From contig NZ_ANFY01000011.1 of the NCBI RefSeq assembly GCF_000331225.1, positions 1-64,000 on the forward strand: a stretch of 64,000 nt of DNA, read 5' to 3'. Under the pieces are notes generated by a model that did not search any database, was not told the DNA's origin, and was given only the letters and a program-made list of their open reading frames with translations. A program made the translations under genes and the position numbers. This DNA is from Sandarakinorhabdus sp. AAP62. GTDB taxonomy: Bacteria > Pseudomonadota > Alphaproteobacteria > Sphingomonadales > Sphingomonadaceae. This document shows positions 18,140 through 30,876 of the stretch, piece after piece (positions within the stretch are counted from its first letter, which is position 1; each line of letters begins with the position of its first letter).

Positions 18140-19153
18140 TTACTCTTCATCAAGCAGTGGCAGTTGCACCTGATTGGCTGGCGGCACCAGCCCGAGATGT
18201 TTCCACGCCGGGCCGTTCAGCATGCGGCCGCGCGCGGTGCGGGCGATCAGGCCCTGCTGGATCAGGAAGGGTTCGATCACGTCTTCCACCGTGTCGCGCG
18301 CTTCCGACAGGCCGGCGGCAATCGTCTCGATCCCCACCGGCCCGCCGCGATAAATGTCGGCGATCATCATCAGATAGCGCCGGTCCATGGCGTCGAGACC
18401 GAGGCGGTCAACCTCCAGCCGGCTGAGCGAGGCATCGGCGAGTTTCTGATCCACCGGCTTGCCGCCGGCAAAATCGCGTACCCGCCGAAGCAGCCGGCCG
18501 GCGATGCGCGGCGTGCCCCGCGCCCGCGCCGCAATCTCGCGCGCGCCATCGGCGGTGAGTGGCAGATCGAGCAGCCGCGCGGCGCGGGTGACCACCTGTT
18601 CCAGTTCATCGACGGAATAGAAGTTCAGCCGTAGCGGGATGCCGAAGCGGTCACGCAGCGGCGTCGTCAGCAGCCCGGCACGGGTGGTGGCGCCCACCAG
18701 CGTGAACGCCGGCAGATCGATGCGGACCGAGCGCGCCGATGGGCCTTCGCCGATCATGATGTCGAGCACCCGGTCTTCCATCGCCGGATAGAGGATCTCC
18801 TCCACGGCTGGCGACATGCGGTGGATTTCATCGATGAACAGCACATCGTGCGGTTCAAGATTGGTGAGGATGGCGGCCAGATCGCCGGCCTTGGCAATCA
18901 CCGGGCCGGAGGTGGCGCGGAACCCCACGCCCAATTCGCGCGCCACGATCTGCGCCAGCGTCGTCTTGCCCAGGCCCGGCGGGCCGTGCAGCAGCACATG
19001 GTCCATCGCTTCGCCACGCCCGCGGGCGGCGGCGATGAACACGCCAAGATTCTCGCGCAGCGCCTGCTGGCCGATGAACTCGTCCAGCCCCTTGGGCCGC
19101 AGCGCGGCGTCGATGTCGTCCGGGCGACGCTGGGGGGAGAGATCGGCGGTCAT
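18140..19153 (-). CDS. ruvB: Holliday junction branch migration helicase RuvB
   Basis: RuvB is the AAA+ motor that drives branch migration on Holliday junctions with RuvA. In the 337-residue product Walker A is [13 protein letters not shown], Walker [10 protein letters not shown], sensor 1 LVGATTRAG and the arginine-finger region [10 protein letters not shown], followed by the winged-helix C-domain with [19 protein letters not shown]. It is the last gene of the minus-strand series yebC, SnoaL-like, DUF559-ruvC, ruvA, ruvB, and is separated from ruvA by a palindromic repeat in a 142-base gap. Confidence 0.97.
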
Positions 19154-19209
19154 GGTGCGTGGCTAGGCCAAGGCGCGCATTGCAACAAGAGGTGGCGCAT
19201 GCGGCTAGA

Positions 19210-19288
19210 ACCCTCCCCCAACCCCTCCCTTGCAGGGAGGGGAGTCACGTTCGCCCCCCTCCCTGCAAGGGAGGGGTTGGGGGAGGGT
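19210..19288. repeat. palindromic repeat family A, copy 1 (between ruvA and ruvB)
   Basis: A large inverted repeat: the left arm ACCCTCCCCCAACCCCTCCC and the right arm GGGAGGGGTTGGGGGAGGGT are exact complements, and each arm also folds on itself (CCCTCCCTTGCAGGGAGGGG). The same unit recurs at 20411, 20900 (half), 26643 and 30797. It could form a cruciform or a strong RNA hairpin between ruvA and ruvB. Confidence 0.9.
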
Positions 19289-19295
19289 GCGAGCC

Positions 19296-19892
19296 TCACC
19301 GCGCGCTCTTCTTCAGCGCCACACGCACCACGTCATTCAGCCCGGCGCCCTCGCCCAGTTCGGCCAGCGCTTCGGAGACGGCGCGGCTGGCGTCCATCGG
19401 CTTGAAGCCGAGTGCGGCGAGGGCCGCCACCGCATCCTCGACAATGCGGGCGCCGGCCTGCACCGGCAACGGCGCACCGGCCGAAAGCGCGACGCCGCCC
19501 ATCTTGCCCTTCAACTCATTGGCGATGCGGGCGGCGAGCTTGGGGCCGACGCCATTGGCGCGCGCCAGCGAGGCGGCATCACCGGCCGCCACGGCATGCG
19601 CCACCTGATCGGGCGTCAGCACCGAAAGGATATTGAGCGCCACGCGGCCGCCCACGCCCTGCACGGTGATCAGCGCCCGGAACGCCGCCAGTTCGGCCTC
19701 GGACGGGCATCCGAACAGGGTGATGGCATCCTCGCGCACCTGCGTCTCGATGTGCATGGCAATGGGCTGGCCGACGGACAGGTTGGCCAGCGCGCGGGTG
19801 GAGGCCTGCACAAGATAGCCCACCCCGTTCACGTCGATCACCAGCGCGTCGGCCGACACGCTGTCCACCAGGCCTCTCAGTCGCGCGATCAT
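19296..19892 (-). CDS. ruvA: Holliday junction branch migration protein RuvA
   Basis: RuvA binds the four-way junction and loads RuvB. The 198-residue protein starts MIARLRGLVDSV with the OB-fold domain I, then has the helix-hairpin-helix segments ITVQGVGGRVALNILSVL and ANGVGPKLAARIANELKGK, and a C-terminal domain III (AVAALAALGFKPMDASRAV) that contacts RuvB. Its ATG overlaps the TGA of the DUF559-ruvC gene (ATGA), so the two are translationally coupled. Confidence 0.97.
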   Translation of the reverse strand: MIARLRGLVDSVSADALVIDVNGVGYLVQASTRALANLSVGQPIAMHIETQVREDAITLFGCPSEAELAAFRALITVQGVGGRVALNILSVLTPDQVAHAVAAGDAASLARANGVGPKLAARIANELKGKMGGVALSAGAPLPVQAGARIVEDAVAALAALGFKPMDASRAVSEALAELGEGAGLNDVVRVALKKSAR

Positions 19893-20845
19893 CCCATCAA
19901 CTCACGCATGTTTTTCACCAGGTGCGCATGGGCGATTGCCACCGCCAACGCGTCAGAGGCATCGCTGCCAGCAATCTGCGCGCCCGGCAACAGCCGTTCC
20001 ACCATTGCCTGCACCTGGGGCTTTTCGGCGGCACCGGTGCCGGTAAGCGCCTTCTTGACGGCCCGGGTCGAATGTTCGGCCACCATCAGCCGCGCGCGGC
20101 CCACACACAGCAGCGCCACGCCGCGCGCCTGCACCAGCTTGATCGCCGATTGCGGGTTGGAATTGACGAACACCTCCTCCACCGCCGCCTCCGTGGGCTG
20201 GTGGGCGGCGATCACCGCCATCAGTTCGTCGTGCAGCAGCCGCAGCCGCTCCACCATCGGTTCGGTGACGCGGGTCTTGATGGTGCCATTGGCGACGTGC
20301 CGCAGCCGGTTGCCCTCGGCCACGATCACCCCCCAGCCGGTGGCGGCCAGGCCGGGATCAAGGCCGATGATGGTGCGCCCGCTGGTAGCACGGGCCTCGC
20401 GGCGCTCGGCACCCTCCCCCGGCCCCTCCCTGCGAGCAGGGAGGGGAGCTGCTTCTCCCCTCCCTTGCAAAGGGAGGGGTTGGGGGAGGGTCTGCGGGCC
20501 GCGCGCTGCACGCAGGATCGTCTGCAAGACGCCTTCCAGATCAAGTCCAACCTGCTGATTGGAAAAGCGGACCACCTGCAATCCGCGCAGCGCCAACAGC
20601 CTCGCATCGCGGCGCGCATCGCGGTCGGGATCGTCGTGCGTGCGGCCATCGAGTTCCACCACCAGCCTGGCCTCCGGGCAGTAGAAATCGACAATCACCC
20701 CTTCGATGACCGCCTGGCGTCGAAACTTGAGCCCATCGAGCCTTCGCGCCGAAAGCGCACGCCAGAGCGCCTGCTCCGGCGGCGTCGGCTCGGCCCGCAT
20801 CGCGCGGGCAAAACCGCCAAGACGGGGATCGATACGACGGGCCAT
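19889..20845 (-). CDS. ruvC: DUF559 nuclease-like domain fused to RuvC resolvase
   Basis: This 318-residue frame joins two domains. Residues about 15-112 are a DUF559 domain of the Vsr-like PD-(D/E)xK fold (VDFYCPEARLVVELDGRTH, with D53 and E64). Residues about 119-145 are the translation of palindromic repeat A2 (TLPQPLPLQGRG and following). Residues about 157-318 are a complete RuvC, which cuts Holliday junctions: D163 in IIGLDPG, E223 in AVEEVF, D295 and D298 in GSDASDAL. No ATG or GTG lies between the domains; the only other start would be a TTG inside the repeat. The ATG at 20845 therefore predicts a fusion. The order yebC, ruvC, ruvA, ruvB shows that this is the cell's normal ruvC locus. 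Confidence 0.85.
   Translation of the reverse strand: MARRIDPRLGGFARAMRAEPTPPEQALWRALSARRLDGLKFRRQAVIEGVIVDFYCPEARLVVELDGRTHDDPDRDARRDARLLALRGLQVVRFSNQQVGLDLEGVLQTILRAARGPQTLPQPLPLQGRGEAAPLPARREGPGEGAERREARATSGRTIIGLDPGLAATGWGVIVAEGNRLRHVANGTIKTRVTEPMVERLRLLHDELMAVIAAHQPTEAAVEEVFVNSNPQSAIKLVQARGVALLCVGRARLMVAEHSTRAVKKALTGTGAAEKPQVQAMVERLLPGAQIAGSDASDALAVAIAHAHLVKNMRELMG
20411..20491. repeat. palindromic repeat family A, copy 2 (inside the DUF559-ruvC frame)
   Basis: The same inverted repeat as at 19210, with slight changes (arms ACCCTCCCCCGGCCCCTCCC and GGGAGGGGTTGGGGGAGGGT). It is 81 bases, a multiple of three, carries no in-frame stop on the minus strand and forms the linker between the two protein domains. 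Confidence 0.9.
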
Positions 20846-20899
20846 GGTGCAACGGTTAGCGGGCGAACGGGTGAGGAACAAGCGGCTCGCTGCGCTCGC

Positions 20900-20937
20900 A
20901 CCCTCCCCCGACCCCTCCCTGCACGCAGGGAGGGGAG
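20900..20937. repeat. palindromic repeat family A, copy 3 (half unit)
   Basis: A single arm of the family (ACCCTCCCCCGACCCCTCCC then GCACGCAGGGAGGGGAG), which itself folds back. It sits just upstream of the DUF559 start, so the DUF559 segment is bracketed by copy 3 and copy 2. Confidence 0.85.
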
Positions 20938-20938
20938 A

Positions 20939-21379
20939 TCATCTCGCCTGGCCCAGTGTCACGCCAAGAGTCACAAACGTTTCGCTGCGCAGCTTCCAGC
21001 CCTGCGAGGTTGGCACCCACACCGCCAGATATTCGCCGCTGAACCGGCCATTGAGGCTGCCGCCCGACCAGTGGCCGCGCTCCATGGCGCGTTGTGGCGG
21101 GTTGGCGACGGTCACCACGTCGGGTGTGCGCACGAAGCCGAGAAAGCCCGGCGTCTTGAAGGCGCGGGCGAAATAATCGGTCATGGCTTCAGCGCCGATG
21201 ATGGCTTCGCCGCCGGTGCCGGCAATGCCGACATAGGCTTCTCCCAGCGCGGCGCGCACGCCAGCGGCATCGCGGGCAGCGATGGCGGCGTTGTAGGCGG
21301 CGCGCGCGGCCTTGATCTCGGCAACCGGATCAGCAGCAGCGGGCGTCGCCATGATCATCAGCAGCGCCCCCAGCCTCAC
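20939..21379 (-). CDS. exported SnoaL/DUF4440-like (NTF2-fold) protein
   Basis: A 146-residue protein with a signal peptide ([18 protein letters not shown]) and an NTF2-like fold: [21 protein letters not shown], then [24 protein letters not shown] and the closing [20 protein letters not shown]. It matches the SnoaL/DUF4440 group in shape; the ligand is unknown. The start is a GTG at 21379 overlapping the yebC stop (GTGA), which also gives the best signal peptide. It is inserted between yebC and ruvC, normally neighbours. Confidence 0.75.
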
Positions 21380-22116
21380 AGACTGGCCATCACGTCGTCG
21401 GGCACATCGTAATTGCCCCACACCGTCTGCACGTCGTCATCATCGTCCAGCACGTCGATCAGCTTCATCAGCTGCGCGGCATCCTCGGCGCCCACCGTCA
21501 CCATCGTGCCCGGCTTCCACGCCAGCCTGGCCTGGCCGCTGTCGCCCAGCACCGGTTCCAGCGCGCGGGCAACTTCGTGCAGATTTTCGATGCCGACCCA
21601 GATTTCGTGGCCGTCCTCGCTCGATTCCACATCGTCGGCGCCGGCTTCCAGTGCGGCTTCGAACACGGCATCGGCGCTGCCGGCACTGGCCGGATAGGAA
21701 ATCAGGCCCAATCGCTCGAAACCGTGAGAGACGCTGCCCGACGCGCCGAGGTTGCCGCCATTCTTGGCCATGGCGGTGCGCACGTTGGTGGCAGTGCGGT
21801 TCCGGTTGTCGGTGAGGGTCTCGATGATCAGGCTCACACCGCCGGGGCCGAAGCCTTCGTAGCGCACCTCTTCATAGTTCGCCGTGTCACCACCCTGCGA
21901 CTTGTCGATGGCGCGCTGGATATTGTCTTTCGGCATGCCTTCCACCCGCGCGGCGAGCACGGCGGCGCGCAGGCGCGGATTGTTGGCCGGATCGGGCATG
22001 CCCATCTTGGCCGCCACGGTGATTTCGCGGGAAAGCTTTGAAAACAGGGCGCTGCGCTTCTTGTCCTGCGCGCCCTTCCTGTGCATGATGTTCTTGAATT
22101 TGCTGTGGCCGGCCAT
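21376..22116 (-). CDS. yebC: YebC/TACO1 family protein
   Basis: A 246-residue cytoplasmic protein of the YebC/PmpR family, members of which act as DNA-binding regulators or as translation factors easing ribosome stalls at proline stretches. It starts with the family signature [20 protein letters not shown] and carries [16 protein letters not shown] and [19 protein letters not shown]; the full length is normal. It heads the ruv gene series, the common arrangement in Proteobacteria. Confidence 0.95.
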
Positions 22117-26642: not shown

Positions 26643-26721
26643 ACCCTCCCCCAACCCCTCCCTGGCAGGGAGGGGTGAAGTGGTGCTCCCCTCCCTGTCC
26701 AGGGAGGGGTTGGGGGAGGGT
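26643..26721. repeat. palindromic repeat family A, copy 4 (between convergent genes)
   Basis: A full unit with arms ACCCTCCCCCAACCCCTCCC and GGGAGGGGTTGGGGGAGGGT, between the 3' ends of pyk and the HAD hydrolase gene. In RNA it would form a very stable hairpin from either strand and could serve as a bidirectional terminator or mRNA 3'-end protector. Confidence 0.9.
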
Positions 26722-30796: not shown

Positions 30797-30876
30797 ACCC
30801 TCCCCCAGCCCCTCCCTTGCAGGGAGGGGAGCAGAAGAAGCCTCCCCTCCCTGCAAGGGAGGGGCTGGGGGAGGGT
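30797..30876. repeat. palindromic repeat family A, copy 5 (between convergent genes)
   Basis: A full unit with arms ACCCTCCCCCAGCCCCTCCC and GGGAGGGGCTGGGGGAGGGT: the one-base difference in the left arm is matched by a compensating change in the right arm, so pairing is preserved. It lies between the 3' ends of the enoyl-CoA hydratase and alcohol dehydrogenase genes. Confidence 0.9.

Follow-up and report, generated by a model that had tools for sequence, protein, structure and literature searches.

The window analysed here is a stretch of 64,000 nucleotides (nt) from Sandarakinorhabdus sp. AAP62 (contig NZ_ANFY01000011.1, positions 1 to 64,000), and the subject of this study is its ruvC locus. 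The genes are ordered yebC, DUF4440, DUF559-ruvC, ruvA and ruvB, with the resolvase gene ruvC sharing one open frame with a DUF559 nuclease domain that is bounded by palindromes. The features of the fusion and its palindromes are as follows.

20845 to 19889, minus strand: DUF559-RuvC fusion frame of 318 amino acids and a stop codon, with its ATG at 20845 (open frame and Pfam)
20507 to 20812, minus strand: DUF559 nuclease domain, residues 12–113 (Pfam and alignment)
19928 to 20371, minus strand: RuvC domain, residues 159–306, with D163, E223, D295 and D298
20411 to 20491: 3' palindrome doublet of the element, with hairpins at 20424–20445 and 20458–20478, translated as residues 119–145
20898 to 20937: 5' palindrome of the element, with a hairpin at 20913–20934, upstream of the DUF559 ATG

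An initial annotation, made from the DNA letters, had described a single uninterrupted frame joining DUF559 to a complete RuvC. The frame was confirmed, and both Pfam domains lie above their cut-offs: DUF559 (PF04480) scores 106 bits against a curated cut-off of 20.6, and RuvC (PF02075) scores 153.1 bits against 22.2 and covers positions 1–148 of its 148-position profile. All four acidic residues that the annotation had listed for RuvC are in place, and these are presumably the catalytic residues, as in the E. coli RuvC. Its assignment of residues 119–145 to a translated repeat also holds; this part of the linker reads TLPQPLPLQGRGEAAPLPARREGPGEG and is encoded by the palindrome doublet. The 318-codon frame is predicted to yield one polypeptide with a computed mass of 34.4 kDa, compared with 17.1 kDa for a RuvC that begins at RTIIG (residue 157). 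An AlphaFold calculation with 77 rows modeled both domains confidently (mean predicted local distance difference test, pLDDT = 85.6), with linker residues 118–136 and 141–153 below a pLDDT of 50. With a predicted template modeling score (pTM) of 0.56, the relative placement of the two domains is not fixed by the model. A search of the whole genome with the fusion returned three matches, namely the fusion frame and two other DUF559 genes, and no second RuvC was found. In a search for the fusion on plasmids, none of the 69 matched records covers 80% of the query, and PADLOC gave only weak DpdF matches.

The annotation had also pointed out that no ATG or GTG lies between the two domains, and none was found in frame in the linker. 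Counted 5' from RTIIG, the nearest in-frame start-like codons are a TTG at −31 codons, a TTG at −50 codons, which is inside the DUF559 domain, and a GTG at −66 codons. Long open frames are frequent 5' of ruvC in this GC-rich genus (150 codons in the relative G002), and the openness of the frame alone is weak evidence for that reason. On the sequences at hand, the case for a fusion is carried by the missing start codon and by the relatives rather than by openness.

Twenty-four genomes of the genus were sampled (AAP62 itself, referred to as G000, and 23 others), 21 of which gave a RuvC match; G005, G016 and G023 gave DUF559 matches only. The ruvC match of G015 starts at a contig end, which places its upstream side outside the data, and the other 20 genomes were scored. 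DUF559 lies directly upstream of ruvC in five of them, as one frame in G000, G008 and G018 and as two frames in G010 and G019. The site is empty in G002 (Sandarakinorhabdus oryzae NM-18), whose RuvC is 98% identical to that of AAP62 with a ratio of nonsynonymous to synonymous substitution rates (dN/dS) of 0.057. There, ruvC starts with a GTG that overlaps the DUF4440 stop codon TGA, and the two genes have no insert between them. No insert is present in G009 (S. cyanobacteriorum TH057) either, where the ruvC ATG overlaps the DUF4440 stop likewise. The AAP62 element occupies the DUF4440-ruvC junction that is empty in G002, and an ATGA at 20942–20939, at the end of the DUF4440 gene, may be the former ruvC start. 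The initial annotation had proposed that an insertion before ruvC removed its start and created a two-nuclease protein. The first part gains support from the empty site of G002, with its own GTG, and from the palindrome-bounded DUF559 unit; for the second, both sets of active-site residues are kept and the product is a prediction.

The annotation had further suggested a search for other DUF559-RuvC fusions, and two further species of the genus were found to have the same fusion, G008 (320 codons) and G018 (310 codons), with no other RuvC match in either genome. The fusion as a unique accident was rejected on this basis. Between G008 and G018, dN/dS is 0.115 for DUF559 (110 codons), 0.418 for the linker (37 codons) and 0.16 for RuvC (162 codons), with dS at 0.5–0.7; by this codon comparison, both domains of the two fusions are under purifying selection. 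Their linkers differ by gaps of 27, 3 and 6 nt that keep the frame, which is a modest point alone because the chance of three multiples of three is about 1/27. An assembly artefact could also produce such a frame, and the AAP62 genome (3.13 Mb) is a draft of 22 contigs. This is very improbable given that two other assemblies contain the fusion free of stops and under purifying selection when compared with each other, and that the listed values for the AAP62 genome are 100% completeness and 0.05% contamination.

A different account of the same locus is that RuvC is made separately, from a start in the linker (the TTG in the repeat, or a GTG in G008 and G018) or from an ATT or ATC at the RuvC core, with read-through from DUF559 being minor. 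The pertinent evidence comes from Shine-Dalgarno duplex energies, for which random 17-mers of the window gave a median of −2.6. A strong Shine-Dalgarno-like palindrome arm precedes the ATT of G018 (−10.5) and the ATC of G008 (−9.2), and the linker GTG of G018 has an energy of −6.7, making a separate RuvC possible in these two species. The DUF559 ATG of AAP62 has no Shine-Dalgarno sequence (+0.7), those of G008 and G018 have energies of −9.2 and −8.6, respectively, and in the unfused G010, G019, L100 and L251 a palindrome arm of −10.5 or stronger lies before the ruvC start. Against these points, the linker TTG of AAP62 is inside a hairpin and without a Shine-Dalgarno sequence (+3.5), the ATC at its RuvC core has a weak one (−3.1), and G008 and G018 keep the frame over their three linker gaps with the dN/dS given above. 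Separate production of RuvC is judged unlikely.

Among 110 ruvC loci, DUF559 was found just 5' of ruvC in nine genomes (a further locus, L076, is a repeat of G010 and was not counted separately), and seven of the 28 new loci from a DUF559-only search adjoin ruvC. All 16 of these copies are co-directional with ruvC and directly upstream of it, and three are fused. Sequence identities of DUF559 and RuvC agree for the pair G008–G018 (85% and 87%) and disagree for G000–G010 (53% and 84%) and L250–L254 (59% and 89%), while across the 16 copies the two correlate (r = 0.61, 120 pairs). This mixture suggests that the ruvC site has probably been kept through vertical residence plus new arrivals or replacement. 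A tree of 120 DUF559 rows grouped the nine ruvC-linked copies together and the larger tree did not, so an exclusive ruvC clade was rejected; with 28 rows added, the 16 copies fall with 17 others in a clade of 33 (Shimodaira-Hasegawa approximate likelihood ratio test, SH-aLRT, of 94). The ruvC label changes 7 times on the enlarged tree, compared with a shuffled mean of 15.4.

The unfused ruvC-linked unit consists of a palindrome, DUF559 and a second palindrome, the right arm of which immediately precedes the ruvC start, as in G010, G019, L083, L086, L100, L250, L251 and L261. Longer or altered spacers precede ruvC in L085, L236, L240, L254 and L258. In unfused copies, the DUF559 frame crosses the palindrome as PHPNPSPEGEGL or a similar sequence, and in L251 and L261 this frame ends with a stop that overlaps the start of ruvC. 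The frame reads through the entire first 3' hairpin in 93 of the 127 loci that have one. Two aspects had been overlooked by the initial annotation: the fusion is not a one-off and, as far as reading frames can tell, the translated palindrome is the usual tail of DUF559 frames. Among 148 loci, the DUF559 frame runs into a recognised complete downstream protein in three, all with RuvC; that of L185 is still open at the end of the retrieved sequence. At L203, the frame crosses the palindrome, continues in phase for about the first 100 codons of Lpd and then stops, which is possibly a second fusion or a frameshift (the genome is listed as 86% complete). A translated palindrome pair (SPLPFRGGVGGGG...PHPNPSPKGEGL) is found inside the LigA frame at L249, with DUF559 upstream; L244 has a short stretch at that position, and L246 and L260 have other insertions there.

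The remaining features of the locus are the neighboring genes, identified by Pfam, and a palindrome unit without a gene.

20939 to 21421, minus strand: DUF4440/SnoaL-like gene, upstream of the element
21376 to 22116, minus strand: yebC, upstream neighbor
19296 to 19892, minus strand: ruvA
18140 to 19153, minus strand: ruvB
19208 to 19290: two-palindrome gene-less unit (REPIN-like), between ruvA and ruvB

The gene-less pair is present in AAP62 and in none of the six relatives compared. G009 (locus L005), which was outside this comparison, has a gap of ~590 nt between ruvA and ruvB, and several members of the genus have a few bases there. The core of the palindromes around ruvC recurs in two more palindrome pairs of the window, at 26656–26708 and 30810–30863. 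The window contains nine palindromes against 0.01 expected by chance, and the AAP62 genome contains 68, often in inverted pairs, against 2 for a reversed control pattern.

For a comparison across genomes, a hairpin was defined by perfect arms of at least 8 nt and a loop of 2–14 nt within 200 nt of DUF559, and control windows were placed 400–600 nt away. The first set of 120 loci comprised 30 top-scoring and 46 lower-scoring loci from a search of the family, 33 from the genus, two from AAP62 itself and nine linked to ruvC, after L188 was dropped as a duplicate of L177. Hairpins were present on the 5' side of 101, on the 3' side of 105 and on both sides of 90 of these loci, compared with 3/98 and 10/113 in the controls; without the nine ruvC-linked copies the counts are 96, 97 and 85 of 111. 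A second set of 28 loci gave 25, 22 and 21 (controls 1/28 and 4/28), and a class-wide set of 30 gave 21, 24 and 15 (controls 3/29 and 1/29). The flanking palindromes are typically 20–28 nt long. Their arm type changes 16 times on the DUF559 tree against a minimum of 48 in 200 shuffles, with 139 of 148 loci typed (nine without a type were left out, and L001 and L002 were set by hand); this tree rests on few columns, leaves many forks open and would group related rows in any case. A DUF559 clade with lower scores (L168, L178, L185 and L186) has a different palindrome core of the CCTCCCC type.

DUF559 is present in 260 of the 298 genomes of the family, in which the number of CCCTCCC palindromes follows the DUF559 copy number (Spearman 0.57). 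The median is 2.5 palindromes in genomes without DUF559 (n = 38) and 22 in genomes with at least three copies (n = 114). Splits within genera gave signs of 38 to 11 by DUF559 copy number (p = 1.4e-4) and 25 to 11 by a close match to the DUF559 of the AAP62 fusion (p = 0.03).

These palindromes could instead be repetitive extragenic palindromic (REP) sequences that belong to a REP-associated tyrosine transposase (RAYT, a Y1 transposase) or to another mobiliser, with DUF559 merely located in REP-rich intergenic spaces. Consistent with this, genomes with Y1_Tnp (PF01797) are richer in palindromes (median 18 versus 5), 30 of the 120 loci in the first set lack a hairpin on at least one side, and G095 has 78 CCCTCCC palindromes with no DUF559 match. 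Candidate readings of G095 are that it lost its nuclease or has another mobiliser. However, Y1_Tnp occurs in 39 of the 298 genomes and gave no match in AAP62 or in G019, which has 97 palindromes. Among the 90 genomes with at least 20 palindromes, Y1_Tnp is present in 18 and absent in 72, whereas DUF559 is present in 89. The hairpins also abut DUF559 far above the controls, and their type follows the DUF559 tree. An RAYT as the necessary mobiliser was rejected on its absence from AAP62 and from the 72 palindrome-rich genomes, and the broader alternative is judged quite improbable. Among 253 DUF559-flanking hairpins, the GTAG tag was found in 10 (2.2% expected at random places) and CGTC or GACG within 8 nt in 7 (12.6% expected), and membership of the GTAG or CGTC REPs was rejected on these counts. 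The commonest adjacent 5-mers were TTGGG/CCCAA (34 on the right, 35 on the left).

Clustering of the downstream flanks of 147 sequences placed 106 in 17 clusters (24, 18, 16, 8, 6, 5, 4, 4, 3, 3, 3 and six pairs) and left 41 single. The largest shared sites are just upstream of lpd, dnaG, ruvC and aroC, with counts of 24 for lpd, 8 for aroC, 5 for sufC and 3 for carB. The ruvC cluster of 16 is inflated because nine of its members came from queries containing RuvC, and ruvC as the sole target was rejected by the other shared sites. Downstream genes were identified with Pfam in eight clusters, with one member taken from each (two from the dnaG cluster), and neighbors were read by eye; L252, a near copy of L244, was left out of this reading and kept in the clustering. 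The genes are a pyridine nucleotide-disulphide oxidoreductase (lpd, behind pdhC), DnaG, chorismate synthase (behind fabI), NAD+ DNA ligase, an ABC ATPase that is read here as sufC, CarB, nitronate monooxygenase and TrpA. One single copy is upstream of an mfd-like gene, and the DUF559 copies at the dnaG site fall into at least two groups of the tree. Some copies do not face their neighbor: at L045 and L158/L161, the adjoining genes are on the opposite strand.

Residues E24, D53, E64, D66, H70 and D76 are invariant in 42 DUF559 rows. A model of DUF559 by itself matched NGO0050 (PDB: 3hrl) with a template modeling (TM) score of 0.86 of target and the I-Bth0305I catalytic domain (PDB: 3r3p) with 0.73 of target and a root mean square deviation of 2.9; a separate structure search gave 0.76 for the latter. 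Vsr (PDB: 1vsr) ranked eighth (TM 0.43/0.39, E = 0.05). At E 0.01, a DUF559 profile search gave only two matches, 3hrl (7e-35) and 3r3p (2.4e-4). No separate DNA-binding domain was found in the fusion, where Pfam gives only DUF559 and RuvC. Of the characterized relatives, a Vsr-like DUF559 protein of Caulobacter is reported to be required by a methyltransferase mutant for its SOS response (PMC12907096), and a cyanobacterial DUF559 gene is placed in the EDxHD homing family in the relevant part of PMC9403480.

Alternatively, DUF559 might be a Vsr-like repair enzyme of the host, as has been proposed for VsrA of Caulobacter, and be kept in the ruvC operon with the palindromes as regulatory hairpins, and the fusion would join two cooperating repair enzymes. 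The active site fits, as VsrA residues E73, D102, D115, H119 and D124 (from the portion of PMC12907096 describing them) correspond to E24, D53, D66, H70 and D76 with the numbering shifted by 49 (by 48 for D124), which is a mapping made here and not an alignment to VsrA. The uniform placement of the 16 ruvC-linked copies and the several sites at DNA-metabolism genes (dnaG, ligA and one mfd-like) are also in agreement. Many sites, though, are at non-repair genes such as lpd, aroC, sufC and carB, the presence of DUF559 is patchy, and gene-less palindrome pairs occur. Furthermore, the identities of DUF559 and RuvC disagree in the two pairs described above, and the closest solved folds are NGO0050 and I-Bth0305I, ahead of Vsr. 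This account is considered unlikely.

The favored explanation is that an inserted REP-like DUF559 element deprived ruvC of its start and gave a DUF559-RuvC protein, which on balance is probable. The palindrome-bounded element stands between ruvC and the gene upstream of it, a place seen to be empty by comparison with G002, and has parted ruvC from a start codon. Two separate genes are the usual state at ruvC, often with the palindrome arm as a putative ribosome-binding site and in some copies with stop/start overlaps; the fusion would be a later step in which the intervening stop and start are lost. The DUF559 frame, which normally reads through its own 3' palindrome and then stops, here continues into ruvC. 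As a consequence, the sole RuvC found is most likely made as the C-terminal domain behind a DUF559 nuclease and a disordered, repeat-encoded linker, and the fused protein may be made and resolve junctions. Several observations weigh against this explanation. No target-site duplication can be delimited at the diverged AAP62 junctions, and the shared sites could reflect long vertical residence just as well as repeated insertion. The correlated identities of DUF559 and RuvC, the Shine-Dalgarno energies at the DUF559 ATG of AAP62 and within the G008 and G018 frames, the loci lacking a hairpin, the palindromes of G095 and the palindrome-rich Y1_Tnp genomes count on the same side.

The element would be part of a widespread REP-like system with an EDxHD/Vsr-type nuclease in place of the RAYT. 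DUF559 may cut its own palindromes or specific target junctions and in this way copy or relocate both the element and the derivatives that lack its gene. A broader proposal, which is tentative and somewhat doubtful as a whole, is that Alphaproteobacteria have a second, RAYT-free kind of REP system, with a DUF559 (EDxHD) nuclease that both recognises its cognate palindromes and mobilises them and that prefers a limited set of junctions, many of them before housekeeping genes. In the at least three species where it is fused to RuvC, one protein could nick the palindrome and resolve the resulting cruciform or branched intermediate.

DUF559 is widespread in the family yet little studied, and a gene bounded by palindromes gives it a testable role. 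DUF559 is a candidate partner for the palindromes, which in these genomes are mostly found in the absence of an RAYT (72 of the 90 palindrome-rich genomes). According to the relevant part of PMC3733652, the mobiliser of a transposase-less alphaproteobacterial REP class was left open. If the association is true, the dedicated partner of REPs need not be a transposase gene, and in the fusion a nuclease of this kind is attached to the sole RuvC found in AAP62. No paper pairing DUF559 with palindromic repeats was present among the matches listed in the literature on DUF559, REP/RAYT and Vsr, and the DUF559-plus-palindrome unit recurring in related bacteria looks like an undescribed kind of repeat system.

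Compared to the canonical RuvC resolvase, the fusion has the fold of P. aeruginosa RuvC (PDB: 6lw3, TM 0.93 of target), the four acidic residues and the ruvC-ruvA-ruvB order, and differs by its N-terminal DUF559 domain, its repeat-encoded linker and the lack of an ATG or GTG start of its own. Palindromic repeats that are read in frame within proteins are known from the Rickettsia palindromic elements; here, in contrast, the palindrome is a linker between two nuclease domains and part of a gene-bearing unit. With the EDxHD homing endonuclease I-Bth0305I, DUF559 shares the catalytic fold, the profile match and recurrent sites. Empty and occupied sites were both found by sequence comparison, and cleavage of the empty site and homing are putative. 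Unlike these endonucleases, the unit is bounded by palindromes with no intron or intein seen at it, and Pfam shows no counterpart of the further DNA-binding parts that I-Bth0305I has according to the pertinent section of PMC3943268. With respect to Caulobacter VsrA, no fusion is reported in the available text of PMC12907096, from which the string "palindrom" is also absent. The CGTC-tagged REPs are described in the relevant portion of PMC3733652 as abundant in Alphaproteobacteria, including sphingomonads, with no dedicated transposase, and REPs within genes as often located in replication and repair genes. The DUF559-flanking hairpins mostly lack CGTC and have a common TTGGG/CCCAA tail, which by this tag test makes them a different palindrome class.

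The closest parallel is the REP/RAYT system (REPtron, REPIN). The gene bounded by palindromes is a DUF559/EDxHD nuclease and not a Y1 transposase, and the palindromes are not GTAG-tagged; by these two tests, the unit is not a member of that system. It has in common with the REP/RAYT system palindromes that are short, abundant and often arranged as inverted pairs, a low-copy gene flanked by its cognate palindromes, as in the REPtrons of PMC3733652 so far as that source describes them, and a palindrome type that tracks the tree of the associated gene. On present evidence and by analogy, the DUF559-palindrome unit appears to work like a REP/RAYT system.

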